From a virus: 64,000 bases of DNA. Where the stretch lies: positions 62,001-126,000 of the IMG/VR virus record IMGVR_UViG_3300012988_000001; one strand, 5' to 3'. A program made the position numbers and the translations under genes. The notes beneath the pieces were generated by a model that saw only the letters and a list, made by a program, of their open reading frames with translations, was not told the DNA's origin and made no database searches. Shown one piece after another: positions 55,461 through 62,233 of the stretch (positions are counted from its first letter, which is position 1; every line of letters begins with the position of its first letter).

Positions 55461-55499
55461 GCAGTTTGTTTCAAAAACTTGGGACAAACTGCTTTTTTT
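55461..55499 (+). terminator. terminator overlapping the next promoter
   Basis: GCAGTTTGT (55461-55469) and ACAAACTGC (55484-55492) form a 9-bp stem, followed by seven T residues. The 3' arm is the conserved GGGACAAAC segment of the promoter at 55479. Confidence 0.8.
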
Positions 55500-55509
55500 G
55501 TGCTATAAT
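55479..55509 (+). promoter_or_regulatory. promoter (TTGGGACA family) embedded in a terminator
   Basis: TTGGGACAAAC with GGGACA at 55481-55486, a 17-base spacer holding the terminator T run, and TATAAT at 55504-55509. Leader of about 58 bases before the ATG at 55574. Confidence 0.75.
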
Positions 55510-55573
55510 TAAGTTATTAAGAAATGAGTCAACACTCAAACCAAATTATCCATTTCTGAGAGGTAGAAAATAT

Positions 55574-57106
55574 ATGTCATTCAAACAAGCAGTTATCAAC
55601 GAAACCACCGCAGCAACCGACAACGTAGCTTTCACGGCTAACGGTGCAGTCTCAAACGCAAGCTCCCTCAACTTCCTAGTTGATCTATTTGCGATTCTAG
55701 GTGCAGTTCGTGGTAAAGATTTCTCTACCTTTGAGAATCTATTCGAACAAGCATATTCCATGAACCGTAAGCTAACGCTTCAAATGGTTCTATGGGTACG
55801 TGATGTTCGCGGTGGTGCAGGTGAGCGTGAAACCACACGTCAAATCCTTCGTCACCTAGAAGCAAACCATCAACAGGATCTAGTAGAACTAATCCCAGTA
55901 CTCGCAGAGTATGGTCGTTGGGATGATCTTCTAATTTTCACTAACGATAATGTGAAGAACTTTGCTTATGCAACTATTTCTGCTAATCTAAAAGCTGGTA
56001 ACGCACTATGTGCTAAATGGATGCCTCGCGTCTATAAGCTCAAAAAAGGTGCTGATGGTACAGTGAACAAAGAATCGGTTGCAAACCAGAACCGTATTGC
56101 GAACAATCAAATTGCTCGTGAGCTAATGCAAGTGATGGGTCTAAACGAACGTCAGTACCGCAAACTACTAGCTTCTCTAAGCACTACGGTTGAACAAAAC
56201 ATGTGTGCTAAAGATTGGTCTAGTATTGAGTACTCTCATGTTCCATCTGTAGCAATGAACCGCTACCGTGCTGCTTTCATGCGTAACGACGAAACTCGTT
56301 TCACTGAATTCGGTAACAAGGTAGAAGCTGGTGAAGTTAAGGTTAATGCTTCGGCACTATTCCCTTACGATGTAACCACTAAGTTCAAGTACGGTCAATC
56401 CGACAAGGTTTTTGTTGGTCAGTGGGATGCTCTACCAGACTACTTAAACGGTGCTTCAATCCTACCAATGTGTGATACCAGTGGTTCGATGGAATGTCCA
56501 GCAGGTGCATCAGGCTCCCTAACTTGTATGGATGTAGCGGTTTCTCTAAGCCTCTATATTTCTGACAAGCAGAAAGGTGCGTTCAAGGACGTGTTCTTGA
56601 ACTTCAGCGAGTCTCCCAACTTGTTCGTACTTAAGGGTAAGAACATCGAAGAGAAGTATCGCGACCTCTGCAAGTACAAGGGTGGTGCGTACTGGGGTGG
56701 TTCTACTGATATCGGTAAGGCTTTCCACCACATCCTAAAAACTGCTGTGAAGCAGAACGTGCAACAACAGGATATGCCTGAATATCTACTAATCTTTAGC
56801 GATATGGAGTTCGACTCTACATATGCTTGGGGTGGTGTAGAGAACAACGGTAACTGGGATGTAACTGCTTATGAGTATGCTAAACAGCTATACGCTCAGA
56901 ACGGTTATGAACTACCTAAAGTTATCTTCTGGAACCTAAATGGTCGTCCGGGTAACAACCCTGTCACGATCCACGATACTGGCACTGCTATGGTATCTGG
57001 TTTCAGTCCAGCAATCCTAACTGCAATCCTAGCTGGTGAGCAAGTAGATCCTGTATCTATCATGCTAGCAGCAATTGATAAGCCTCGCTATCAAGTGATT
57101 GCATAA
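55574..57106 (+). CDS. Ro/TROVE-like protein with VWA domain (DUF2828-type)
   Basis: 510 aa. The N-terminal ~270 residues are helical, with V-R-D-V-R-G-G-A-G-E-R near 76-85, a signature shared with DUF2828 and TROVE (Ro60-like) proteins. A VWA domain follows with MIDAS motif D301-T-S-G-S305. Ro proteins bind small Y-type RNAs in RNA quality control. ATG 55574 follows GAGAGG; the open frame begins at 55466, but the promoter lies inside that extension. The gene stands alone between its own promoter and a terminator and has GC-richer codons than its neighbours. RNA binding is an inference. Confidence 0.75.
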   Translation: MSFKQAVINETTAATDNVAFTANGAVSNASSLNFLVDLFAILGAVRGKDFSTFENLFEQAYSMNRKLTLQMVLWVRDVRGGAGERETTRQILRHLEANHQQDLVELIPVLAEYGRWDDLLIFTNDNVKNFAYATISANLKAGNALCAKWMPRVYKLKKGADGTVNKESVANQNRIANNQIARELMQVMGLNERQYRKLLASLSTTVEQNMCAKDWSSIEYSHVPSVAMNRYRAAFMRNDETRFTEFGNKVEAGEVKVNASALFPYDVTTKFKYGQSDKVFVGQWDALPDYLNGASILPMCDTSGSMECPAGASGSLTCMDVAVSLSLYISDKQKGAFKDVFLNFSESPNLFVLKGKNIEEKYRDLCKYKGGAYWGGSTDIGKAFHHILKTAVKQNVQQQDMPEYLLIFSDMEFDSTYAWGGVENNGNWDVTAYEYAKQLYAQNGYELPKVIFWNLNGRPGNNPVTIHDTGTAMVSGFSPAILTAILAGEQVDPVSIMLAAIDKPRYQVIA

Positions 57107-57297: not shown

Positions 57298-57714
57298 ATG
57301 AAAGAATACATTGAGATCGAAGGTATCATACGATACGACCCTCCCAGACATGGGATGAAACGGAACACGAACTACTGGTGTATTCTAGAATTACCTGAAG
57401 ATTTAGTTAAGTACTACCAGTACTTCGTAAAGACTGATTTACATATTCCCATCGCAGACCCTTCTTGGGGAGCACACGTCAGTATTGTACGTGGTGAGAC
57501 ACCACCTAATCCTGAAGTGTGGAAAAAGTACGATGGAAAGAAAGTAAAGATAAAATACTATCCTTACATTCATGTGAAGAAAGATCCGAAGAAAGAAGGA
57601 TTGTACTGTTTTATTGATTTTGAAGTCCCGTTCTTTCGTCAGATACGAAAAGAGCTAGGACTAGAATGTAAATATACTTTCCATTTTACTATTGGAAGAA
57701 CGCACTATGATTAG
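57298..57714 (+). CDS. 2H phosphoesterase-like protein, 138 aa
   Basis: Two H-x-[ST] motifs, H60-V-S62 (W-G-A-H-V-S-I-V-R-G) and H129-F-T131 (F-H-F-T-I-G-R), lie 69 residues apart, the spacing of 2H phosphoesterases. W-K-K-Y-D-G-K-K-V and I-R-K-E-L-G-L between them fit a phage family of this type. It may act on cyclic-phosphate RNA ends or cyclic nucleotides. It is not closely similar to the 13854 product. Overlaps the next gene by 8 bases. Confidence 0.6.
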   Translation: MKEYIEIEGIIRYDPPRHGMKRNTNYWCILELPEDLVKYYQYFVKTDLHIPIADPSWGAHVSIVRGETPPNPEVWKKYDGKKVKIKYYPYIHVKKDPKKEGLYCFIDFEVPFFRQIRKELGLECKYTFHFTIGRTHYD

Positions 57715-58297: not shown

Positions 58298-58396
58298 CTC
58301 TTAGAGTTAAAGTAGAAAGTCCAACGAGGCTTTGTGCAAACACGGCCTCACTGTAGTCCCGTTTGTCAAGGTTTCCAAAACAAAAAGGAGAAATCA

Positions 58397-59317
58397 GTGA
58401 AAGCGATCCAAAAACTGAAAACTTTACTTTTAGTAGGTTTTCTGTTAGCGGTAGCTGCTATTGGATTTATTGGTTATAAACACAATGATCGTACACCGTC
58501 ATCAAATTTAGGTGTACAACAAGTTATTCAAATTCAAAAGCAACCGCCCGTAACGTCATTGCCAGTTCAATTAGCAACTGTCAAAGGAACTAAGACGGAA
58601 AGCAGAAAGCAGTATGTTGTCCAGAAGGGTGACACATTTTGGGTCATAGCCCAAAAAACTAAACCAATGAATGTTGAGATGTATCCGTACATTGATGTAT
58701 TCAAACAAATCAATGGTAGTATTAAAGTACTAAACGTTGATAAGCCTGTACACTTACCAAATGAGAATGATTTGAAGTCTGTTATTCTTCCAGATGTAAC
58801 ACTACATTTCGATCATCTTGACGACGAACTGATAGAGTTCATCAAACAGTCTGAAGGTTCTAAAGAACTTCAATCTGTTTTAAAAAGAAAATTACTTGGT
58901 GGAAAAGTCGGTCCATCATATAAAAATTCAAAGTTCTATCCATATAAAGATATGAAAGGTAACTATACTATTGGTTATGGTCATTATCTAGGAAAGAAAG
59001 AATCCGACGCAAATAAGTACAAAAATGGTATTACTGAGTATCAAGCGAAGAAAATACTAAAAGCTGATATGAAGCGTACTTATGATGACTTCACGTTACT
59101 ACTGCAACGTAAAAACGCAGTAAACCTTACGAAAGACCAGCAACGTATTTTATACGATATGGCTTATTCAATGGGTGTTGACAAACTTGATAAGTTTACA
59201 CGTCTATGGAAAGCTGTACAGCATGGTAATGATCGTAAATTCAAAAAAGAAATTGAAGGTTCTTTATGGTTCAAGCAAGTTGGGAACCGTGCTGAAATCC
59301 TTCTAAGTTCCCTATAA
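58397..59317 (+). CDS. signal-anchored LysM-lysozyme (endolysin), GTG start
   Basis: Cell-wall lytic enzyme. Residues ~9-31 form a hydrophobic, Ala/Gly-containing signal-anchor (LLLVGFLLAVAAIGFIGY). A LysM peptidoglycan-binding domain follows (Y-V-V-Q-K-G-D-T-F-W-V-I-A, from ~75), then a T4-type lysozyme domain with a glutamate in Q-S-E-G-S and D-M-K-G-N-Y-T-I-G-Y-G-H, matching the D-x5-T part of the T4 catalytic set. GTG at 58397 has AAGGAG 7 bases upstream. The anchor suggests export by the Sec system, as in signal-anchor-release endolysins. A virion or membrane role is an alternative. Confidence 0.8.
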   Translation: MKAIQKLKTLLLVGFLLAVAAIGFIGYKHNDRTPSSNLGVQQVIQIQKQPPVTSLPVQLATVKGTKTESRKQYVVQKGDTFWVIAQKTKPMNVEMYPYIDVFKQINGSIKVLNVDKPVHLPNENDLKSVILPDVTLHFDHLDDELIEFIKQSEGSKELQSVLKRKLLGGKVGPSYKNSKFYPYKDMKGNYTIGYGHYLGKKESDANKYKNGITEYQAKKILKADMKRTYDDFTLLLQRKNAVNLTKDQQRILYDMAYSMGVDKLDKFTRLWKAVQHGNDRKFKKEIEGSLWFKQVGNRAEILLSSL

Positions 59318-59327
59318 GGAGTTGTGT

Positions 59328-59648
59328 ATGATTACTATTCAAGGTATCAATGTAGAAGTAACCGATGCTATTAAAGAGCACATTGAACATAATGTAGGTA
59401 AACTTTCTAAGTACAACACTAAAAACGATCTCAACATCAAAGTAAATTTGAAGGTTGAAACTAAAGATACTTTTGACGTAGATGTTATTGTTGAAGGTAA
59501 AAACATTTCTGGTGGTGCTGTTAGTGATGACATGTACACTGCTATTACCATGTCATTTGAAAATGTGGAAACTATTCTAGCTCGTCGTAAGGGCAAAGAA
59601 CTTTCCAAACGTCATGAAAAAATTCAGTTGACAGACGCAGAAGAATAA
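59328..59648 (+). CDS. hpf: ribosome hibernation promoting factor-like protein
   Basis: 106 aa. The sequence follows the HPF/YfiA (ribosomal S30AE) fold: M-I-T-I-Q-G-I-N-V-E-V-T-D-A-I-K-E-H-I at the start, K-L-S-K-Y, then alternating strands D-L-N-I-K-V-N-L-K-V and D-V-D-V-I-V-E-G, a second amphipathic helix containing D-D-M-Y-T-A-I and a basic tail. Bacterial homologues bind the ribosomal decoding site and idle or pair ribosomes. ATG 59328, 10 bases after the endolysin stop, is chosen over TTG 59322. The next promoter begins inside its end. Confidence 0.85.
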   Translation: MITIQGINVEVTDAIKEHIEHNVGKLSKYNTKNDLNIKVNLKVETKDTFDVDVIVEGKNISGGAVSDDMYTAITMSFENVETILARRKGKELSKRHEKIQLTDAEE

Positions 59649-59657
59649 TGATATACT
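59628..59657 (+). promoter_or_regulatory. sigma70 promoter abutting a terminator
   Basis: TTGACA at 59628-59633 (inside the hpf coding end), an 18-base spacer and TATACT at 59652-59657. The terminator arm starts at the next base, so the predicted start (~59664) lies within it. Confidence 0.7.
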
Positions 59658-59686
59658 AAGGACATTCCACGGAGTGTCCTTTTTTA
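59658..59686 (+). terminator. Rho-independent terminator after hpf
   Basis: AAGGACA and TGTCCTT pair, extended inward by TTCC/GGAG, followed by a T run. Confidence 0.85.
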
Positions 59687-61108: not shown

Positions 61109-62233
61109 ATGAAAAAATATATCGTCGGTGGTTTTGTACGTGATAAACTACTTGGCCTAAAACCAAAAGACAAAGACTACGTACTTGTAGGAGCCAAACA
61201 GCGTGATATTGATTATCTAACGTCCCAAGGCTACAAACAAGTAGGTGCTGACTTCCCTGTATACTTATCTCCAGCAGGTGATGAGTATGCTCTTGCACGT
61301 GTTGAGCGTAAGACGGGTAACGGATATAAAGGTTTTACTGTAGATACCGAAGGTGTAACTCTTGAACAAGATCTATTCCGTCGAGATCTCACTATCAACG
61401 CCATTGCCTACGATCCAGTATTCCAAAAACATATCGACCCATATGGTGGTAAGTCCGATCTACAGAATAAAGTACTACGTCATGTTAGTCCTCACTTTGC
61501 TGAAGACCCACTACGTATCCTACGTCTAGCTCGCTTTGCTGCTCGTTATAGCGATTTCACTATTCATAGCAGTACTGAAGAACTAGTACTCAACATGGTA
61601 AAAGAAGGTATGATTGACCATCTTACCCCGGAACGTGTATATGTAGAATTCGAAAAAGCTCTATCCGAGAATAATCCAAGTATTTTCTTCAAGAACCTAC
61701 GTAAATGGGGTGCTCTAGAACGCCTCCTACCGGGTTTGGAAGCCTTTAATAAGGCAGATGGGGAAATGCTCGATAAAATCACACAGACCAGCACAGAGGC
61801 TTACACGAACGATTTTCAGTGGTCTTTCCTACTATCCATGAGTCGTGGTGTAGTATCTAAAGATTATGCTATTGGTCAATTGAAACTACCTGCACAAGCA
61901 GTGAAGTTCTTCAAGTTTGTTACTGCTAACTTTGAAGAGATCAAGCTATTCAGGAAGAAAACACCTGAACAGATGGTTGAAATGCTAACTAAACTAAATA
62001 TCCACAACAACGGTGGTGAGGAATTCTTGTACAAAGTACTTGAGTACTTCAACATTCAGCGTGATACGGATGGTGAGCTAGAAGACCTAATTGTGAAAGT
62101 GTACGATAAATTTGAAGGCACTGTGATTGGTGATATTGACCAGATGTTGAAAGACGGAACTTTAGAGCCTAAAGAAATCCGTGCATATGTGTCGAATCTT
62201 CGCACAACTGAAGTTGCGAAAATGTTCTCATAA
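61109..62233 (+). CDS. cca: CCA-adding enzyme (tRNA nucleotidyltransferase)
   Basis: Adds or repairs the 3'-CCA end of tRNAs. Class II signatures are intact: V-G-G-F-V-R-D at 6-12, K-D-K-D with metal-binding D21 and D23, R-R-D-L-T-I-N-A-I-A at 91-100 and E-D-P-L-R-I-L-R-L-A-R-F near 131-142 (tRNA/nucleotide-selecting region). At 374 residues it lacks the long HD extension of the E. coli enzyme. The ATG lies 1 base after copy 3 of the small proteins. Together with TyrRS and RNA ligase it points to tRNA maintenance. Confidence 0.94.
   Translation: MKKYIVGGFVRDKLLGLKPKDKDYVLVGAKQRDIDYLTSQGYKQVGADFPVYLSPAGDEYALARVERKTGNGYKGFTVDTEGVTLEQDLFRRDLTINAIAYDPVFQKHIDPYGGKSDLQNKVLRHVSPHFAEDPLRILRLARFAARYSDFTIHSSTEELVLNMVKEGMIDHLTPERVYVEFEKALSENNPSIFFKNLRKWGALERLLPGLEAFNKADGEMLDKITQTSTEAYTNDFQWSFLLSMSRGVVSKDYAIGQLKLPAQAVKFFKFVTANFEEIKLFRKKTPEQMVEMLTKLNIHNNGGEEFLYKVLEYFNIQRDTDGELEDLIVKVYDKFEGTVIGDIDQMLKDGTLEPKEIRAYVSNLRTTEVAKMFS

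Follow-up and report, generated by a model that had tools for sequence, protein, structure and literature searches.

Why would a large phage carry a gene of the ribosome hibernation factor family, and what would the product do to the ribosomes of the infected cell? How phages handle ribosome hibernation, and hence starved or dormant hosts, has been little studied. The question is raised by a gene in a 64,000-nucleotide stretch of viral DNA (the window), which corresponds to positions 62,001-126,000 of a 366,160-bp (~366 kb) record from a virus akin to Salmonella phage Munch. The gene lies at 59328-59648 on the plus strand, is complete from its ATG start to its TAA stop and encodes a protein of 106 amino acids of the HPF/RaiA (S30AE) family. 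The original prediction of a complete HPF/YfiA-like phage protein right after an endolysin gene was borne out: the product scored 61.9 bits against Pfam PF02482 (cut-off 23.7) and 59.3 bits against the NCBIfam model TIGR00741 'HPF/YfiA family' (cut-off 40.9), and the gap to the lysozyme gene upstream is 10 nt. No other S30AE match was found anywhere in the 366,160-bp record. Scores against the equivalog models for E. coli-type HPF (NF007780, 37.9 bits, cut-off 125) and E. coli-type RaiA (NF007654, 26.8 bits, cut-off 158) remained far below the respective thresholds.

Structure prediction, which had been put forward as a check, gave the same answer. An AlphaFold2 model based on the window protein together with six of its relatives (pLDDT 84, pTM 0.75) displays the b-a-b-b-b-a fold in the order b1-a1-b2-b3-b4-a2, with low confidence at residues 103-106. 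When this model was compared with the PDB using Foldseek, ranks 1-37 were all HPF, RaiA, pY or RafH chains, the best with an E value of 1.8e-7. The Z score in VIA-align was 13.9 for E. coli HPF (6h4n) and 15.0 for T. thermophilus protein Y; many HPF-type chains fell at Z 13-15 with an rmsd of 1.2-1.9, and the next folds (dsRNA-binding) at about 8. A dimerising long HPF was considered and rejected, since the ORF stops at 106 amino acids, aligns with the N-terminal domain of long HPFs alone and is devoid of the second, C-terminal dimerisation domain.

The upstream lysozyme (endolysin) gene (58397-59317, plus strand) encodes a Phage_lysozyme domain (phrog_15410), an N-terminal hydrophobic stretch and a weak LysM match that stays under its cut-off; its homologue CBB_187 is a predicted endolysin (PMC5259590). 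The Shine-Dalgarno sequence AAGGAG of the HPF gene (59316-59321, plus strand) overlaps the lysozyme stop codon (59315-59317), and a hairpin resembling an intrinsic terminator, with a 10-bp stem, a 4-nt loop and a T run, is located just 3' of the HPF gene (59658-59681, plus strand). Because of this hairpin, lysozyme and HPF look like a single transcription unit. Comparable hairpins follow the HPF gene in Munch, PBECO4 and XaC1, and the Munch record has a terminator annotated at this position. The adjoining endolysin gene is the one pointer to a late expression of HPF. A strong sigma-70-like promoter match (11/12) at 59628-59657, which straddles the 3' end of HPF and immediately precedes the hairpin, may be due to chance. 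Further upstream, the product of 57298-57714 has a weak similarity to 2H phosphoesterases (PF22547, under cut-off; phrog_12204) and clusters with RNA ligase and tRNA nucleotidyltransferase, possibly forming an RNA-repair neighbourhood. The gene at 55466-57106 belongs to DUF2828/DUF7788 (phrog_850 'RNA-binding protein'), and the homologue of its product, CBB_183, was identified as a virion protein by mass spectrometry (PMC5259590).

The gap of about 100 nt that forms the leader of the lysozyme gene (58298-58396) contains a conserved structured element. This element, TGTAGAAAGTCC-N-GRCTTTGTGCA, occurs as a single copy in the genome and is found upstream of the lysozyme gene in all aligned relatives but XaC1 and L038, the RaK2 form being divergent. 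The conserved hairpin P1 (58312-58337, plus strand; GTA-G-AAAGTC / GGCTTT-G-TGC) can form in 13 of the 13 sequences with full-length cores, with one-sided changes only. An alternative hairpin, P2 (58326-58349, plus strand; GAGGC / GCCTC), uses the same strand as P1, the two being mutually exclusive; it is supported by two compensatory double changes that separate the Munch-like group from the CBB-like one, and is not formed in every sequence. Bases downstream in the leader can pair with the Shine-Dalgarno sequence in several relatives. Rfam returned no family match for the leader element or near the HPF gene. The leader may control lysozyme translation and perhaps, through coupling, also that of HPF.

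Orthologues with 70% identity to the HPF protein are present in five cultured phages (Munch, SE_PL, 7t3, PHA46 and fENko-Kae01). More distant homologues in the same neighbourhood were identified in Hallingskeid, PBECO4/121Q (Asteriusvirus), BF (Eneladusvirus), CBB/GAP32 (Mimasvirus), XbC2, Kaldavass and XaC1. Homologues also occur in IMG/VR contigs: a search with the single HPF protein found no relatives there, and one with an alignment of close relatives found two. The jumbo-phage homologues (Munch gp216, fENko-Kae01 ENKO_218, PBECO4 gp039, 121Q gp533, BF_0186, CBB_188, GAP32_183 and XaC1_256) share family, size and an acidic tail with the window protein at identities of 17-70%. They also share its surroundings, with a lysozyme gene upstream and a tRNA nucleotidyltransferase-nudix pair downstream; in the window, the tRNA nucleotidyltransferase (CCA enzyme) that serves as this landmark is encoded at 61109-62233 on the plus strand. 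While the HPF gene of the window directly follows the lysozyme gene, the two are separated by one or two small genes in Munch, fENko-Kae01 and GAP32. The position between lysozyme and tRNA nucleotidyltransferase is common to the jumbo-phage orthologue group, and in Vibrio phage 2.275.O an HPF homologue is located upstream of the tRNA nucleotidyltransferase. No S30AE match was obtained in RaK2 and Muenster, nor in XacN1 and Atu_ph07, which are other group 2.2 jumbo phages. In Salmonella phage SD-2_S15 (L019 3869-4048), the HPF gene retains its start and its end but lacks its central part, with a change of frame; this assembly may be faulty, since the lysozyme gene is split in sister assemblies.

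The sequence differences among close relatives indicate that the gene is maintained. Comparing the window, Munch, PHA46 and L032 genes gave pN/pS values of 0.12-0.33, which are approximate, the synonymous distances to the Munch gene being almost saturated. The differences between the window and Munch genes are distributed over the three codon positions as 22/14/53, i.e. mostly at the third. By these measures the HPF gene is under purifying selection, and its ORF, with orthologues at 70% identity and this codon-position bias, is not a chance ORF. The gene is old within this jumbo-phage lineage and widely kept there.

In a tree based on about 100 alignment columns, the window protein falls with its counterparts from Munch, L032, Hallingskeid and PBECO4 (99/92) and outside the clades of host HPF and RaiA. 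Long branches meet in this tree, and the jumbo-phage proteins do not form a demonstrated single clade; their shared genomic position argues for a single old acquisition. The rv5-type HPF sits among gammaproteobacterial HPF and was evidently acquired separately. A recent capture from an enterobacterial host was rejected, as the window protein is not nested with enterobacterial HPF or RaiA and its core identity to these is only ~25-34%.

To what extent the phage proteins retain the ribosome contacts of the family was assessed in an alignment of 13 jumbo-phage homologues with 68 bacterial homologues, namely 62 chosen by search score from Pseudomonadota genomes and six named references. In the Francisella RaiA-ribosome structure, K23, K26, R83 and K87 touch 16S rRNA (PMC13122176); by inspection, Francisella RaiA and E. 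coli HPF share the numbering of these four residues. A basic residue, K or R, occupies position K23 in all bacteria (68/68) and in none of the jumbo phages (0/13), and R83 is an arginine in 64/68 bacteria and in one of the 13 jumbo phages (the Vibrio phage), the 13 sequences being related by descent, so that the losses may represent one to three events. In the window protein, K23 is replaced by N (N22) and R83 by T (T82), and both positions are aligned without gaps. Position 23 has since varied freely among the jumbo phages, being N, C, H, G, Q, E, A or S, and thus no longer demands a basic residue. Other residues are mostly retained: Y71 and K89 in 13/13 jumbo-phage proteins, K26 in 12/13, a lysine at position 29 in 12/13 and K or R at position 87 in 11/13. 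Of the basic rRNA-contact residues on helices 1 and 2, the window protein has K26, K89 and K91 as well as Q29->K and K87->R. The original prediction had named loss of the basic ribosome-contact residues as evidence against a hibernation factor; that loss applies in part, to the equivalents of K23 and R83, while the other residues are mostly kept.

The second peculiarity of the phage proteins is their acidic end. In the window protein, the tail KRHEKIQLTDAEE (59607-59645, plus strand) is short, and its acidic character is kept in all jumbo-phage homologues. At least four of the last 12 residues are D or E in 13/13 jumbo-phage proteins (range 4-8; four in the window protein) as compared to 6/44 short bacterial homologues; the corresponding numbers are six for E. 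coli YfiA and one for E. coli HPF. The C terminus of YfiA projects into the RMF site and blocks 100S formation (PMC5620043). By analogy, the phage tail, which is shorter than that of YfiA and poorly modelled, probably blocks RMF-driven dimers. No phage-encoded RMF was found in the 366,160-bp record, and PADLOC returned no defence-related match. The loss of the K23 and R83 equivalents and the shared acidic tail in the jumbo-phage homologues examined are the new observations here. A phage HPF gene as such is not unprecedented, since phage HPFs, including that of GAP32, were described by Mizuno et al. in 2019 (PMC6375957) and in many relatives the gene already bears one of the labels ribosome-associated inhibitor, HPF/RaiA or sigma-54 modulation protein.

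These features can be combined into a tentative mechanism, to which we assign a little under an even chance: the phage protein would be a RaiA-like standby factor with weak, reversible binding to idle ribosomes, which forms no 100S particles and displaces the host hibernation factors. Most likely, it would bind the host 70S or 30S next to the decoding centre, in the site used by tRNA and initiation factors, like bacterial RaiA, and its acidic tail would be expected to enter the RMF site as in E. coli YfiA, preventing 100S dimers. With the K23 and R83 rRNA contacts lost, it would probably bind less tightly than the host factors and come off more easily. Idle ribosomes would thus be set on standby, with a putative benefit to the phage, and translation would not be shut down. 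Release would be brought about by initiation factors, and the phage encodes an IF3 of its own. The IF3 gene is located outside the window (G000:C1:243489-243749, L187). IF3 was found in 7/7 relatives tested, including RaK2, which is without HPF, showing that the two proteins are not obligate partners.

The open-licence literature searched yielded neither a functional study of the HPF of this lineage nor a binding or translation assay. The rv5 HPF, when expressed in E. coli, was present in extracts and absent from the 70S and 100S fractions, and 100S levels were unaltered (PMC6375957). The 70% identical orthologue of fENko-Kae01, annotated as 'ribosome-associated inhibitor', was detected by LC-MS/MS in >300 kDa retained material (PMC11218385), a preparation that does not separate virions, ribosomes and other complexes; the authors themselves caution that detection is no proof of a virion location (PMC11218385). 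The list of CBB virion proteins includes CBB_183 and CBB_201 and lacks the HPF, CBB_188 (PMC5259590). A ribosome-bound pool carried into the fENko-Kae01 preparation would explain both this detection and the absence from the CBB list, and a ribosome-bound rather than virion-borne HPF fits both data sets. A virion protein was considered as a candidate; it is unsupported by the CBB list, and the fENko-Kae01 sample cannot decide.

Reversible standby as outlined above has to be weighed against other roles. A straight silencer or protector, which stably inactivates and shields ribosomes late or in starved hosts as host RaiA and HPF do, corresponds to the original prediction, where a bias of translation towards phage messages was named as a further possibility. 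It would agree with the family, the fold and the many contact residues kept, and the adjacency of the endolysin gene suggests late expression. Yet K23 and R83, which are near-invariant rRNA contacts in bacteria, are replaced, and the phage protein, with a predicted pI of 5.4, is more acidic than E. coli HPF (6.5) or YfiA (6.2), making this explanation rather unlikely. Alternatively, loose occupancy of the HPF/RaiA site could stop host HPF, RaiA and RMF from locking ribosomes and thereby keep these usable for the phage. This overlaps with reversible standby and differs in which effect matters; its general form was proposed by Mizuno et al. in 2019, who raised the possibility of competition between viral and cellular HPF (PMC6375957). 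The pattern of kept and lost contacts, the YfiA-like tail and the phage IF3 all speak for such competition, but weak binders compete poorly unless abundant, and we regard it as doubtful. Its most specific version, an HPF derivative that has lost two anchors, carries an RMF-blocking tail and acts as an anti-hibernation factor, holding host ribosomes back from 100S dimers and from complexes with host HPF and handing them to phage initiation with IF3, is to be viewed with the same reserve.

Two further explanations place the protein off the ribosome or deny it a role. It might have been repurposed as an RNA- or protein-binding protein, for instance one that binds phage RNA or is packaged into virions. 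The lost contacts, the acidic charge, the divergence among phage lineages (down to 17-23% identity) and the presence of the fENko-Kae01 orthologue in a phage preparation are in line with this, whereas Y71, K26, K87 and K89 are kept, the fold is essentially unaltered and the protein is missing from the CBB virion list, so that we consider repurposing improbable. A functionless passenger, selfish or neutral, taken over from a host is scarcely credible: although the gene can be lost, given its absence from RaK2 and Muenster and its internal deletion in the SD-2_S15 assembly, it has pN/pS values of 0.12-0.33, keeps the same place across several genera and is no recent copy of enterobacterial hpf or raiA. 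We favour reversible occupancy over tight silencing, on the grounds of the family scores, the fold, the YfiA-like tail, the kept versus lost contacts, the synteny across jumbo-phage genera, the signature of selection, the fENko-Kae01/CBB detection pattern and the phage IF3. Against a standby factor stands the rv5-type HPF, the sole phage HPF tested, which was not recovered with ribosomes despite having both K23 and R83; the loss of these two residues could also mean that ribosome binding has been lost altogether. The residue losses together with the tail make the choice between silencer, protector and competitor an experimentally answerable question.

The window protein can finally be compared to known systems. 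The phiKZ gp014-type proteins are likewise encoded by jumbo phages and, as described, act on host ribosomes (PMC11849849); they belong to a different phage group and are likened here by description only. The rv5-type (Vequintavirus) HPF is phage-borne and short like the window protein, but has a lysine/glycine-rich stretch before its end and keeps K23 and R83. In the rv5-type phage V18 (NC_041937 82765-82977; record of L181), there is a second, weak S30AE-like match of 14.9 bits, under cut-off, and in phage nomo a neighbouring small gene is also annotated as 'sigma 54 modulation factor'. Among solved structures, the best sequence match is the N-terminal domain of the long HPFs of Firmicutes (L. 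lactis, B. subtilis, Listeria), whose C-terminal dimerisation domain is missing from the phage protein. With the short HPF of E. coli, the phage protein shares the fold and ~30-34% core identity; it differs from this HPF by an extra acidic tail and the lost K23/R83 equivalents. E. coli RaiA/YfiA resembles it in fold, in its short one-domain form and in its acidic C-terminal tail, while the core identity amounts to ~25-27% and the equivalents of K23 and R83 are missing in the phage protein.
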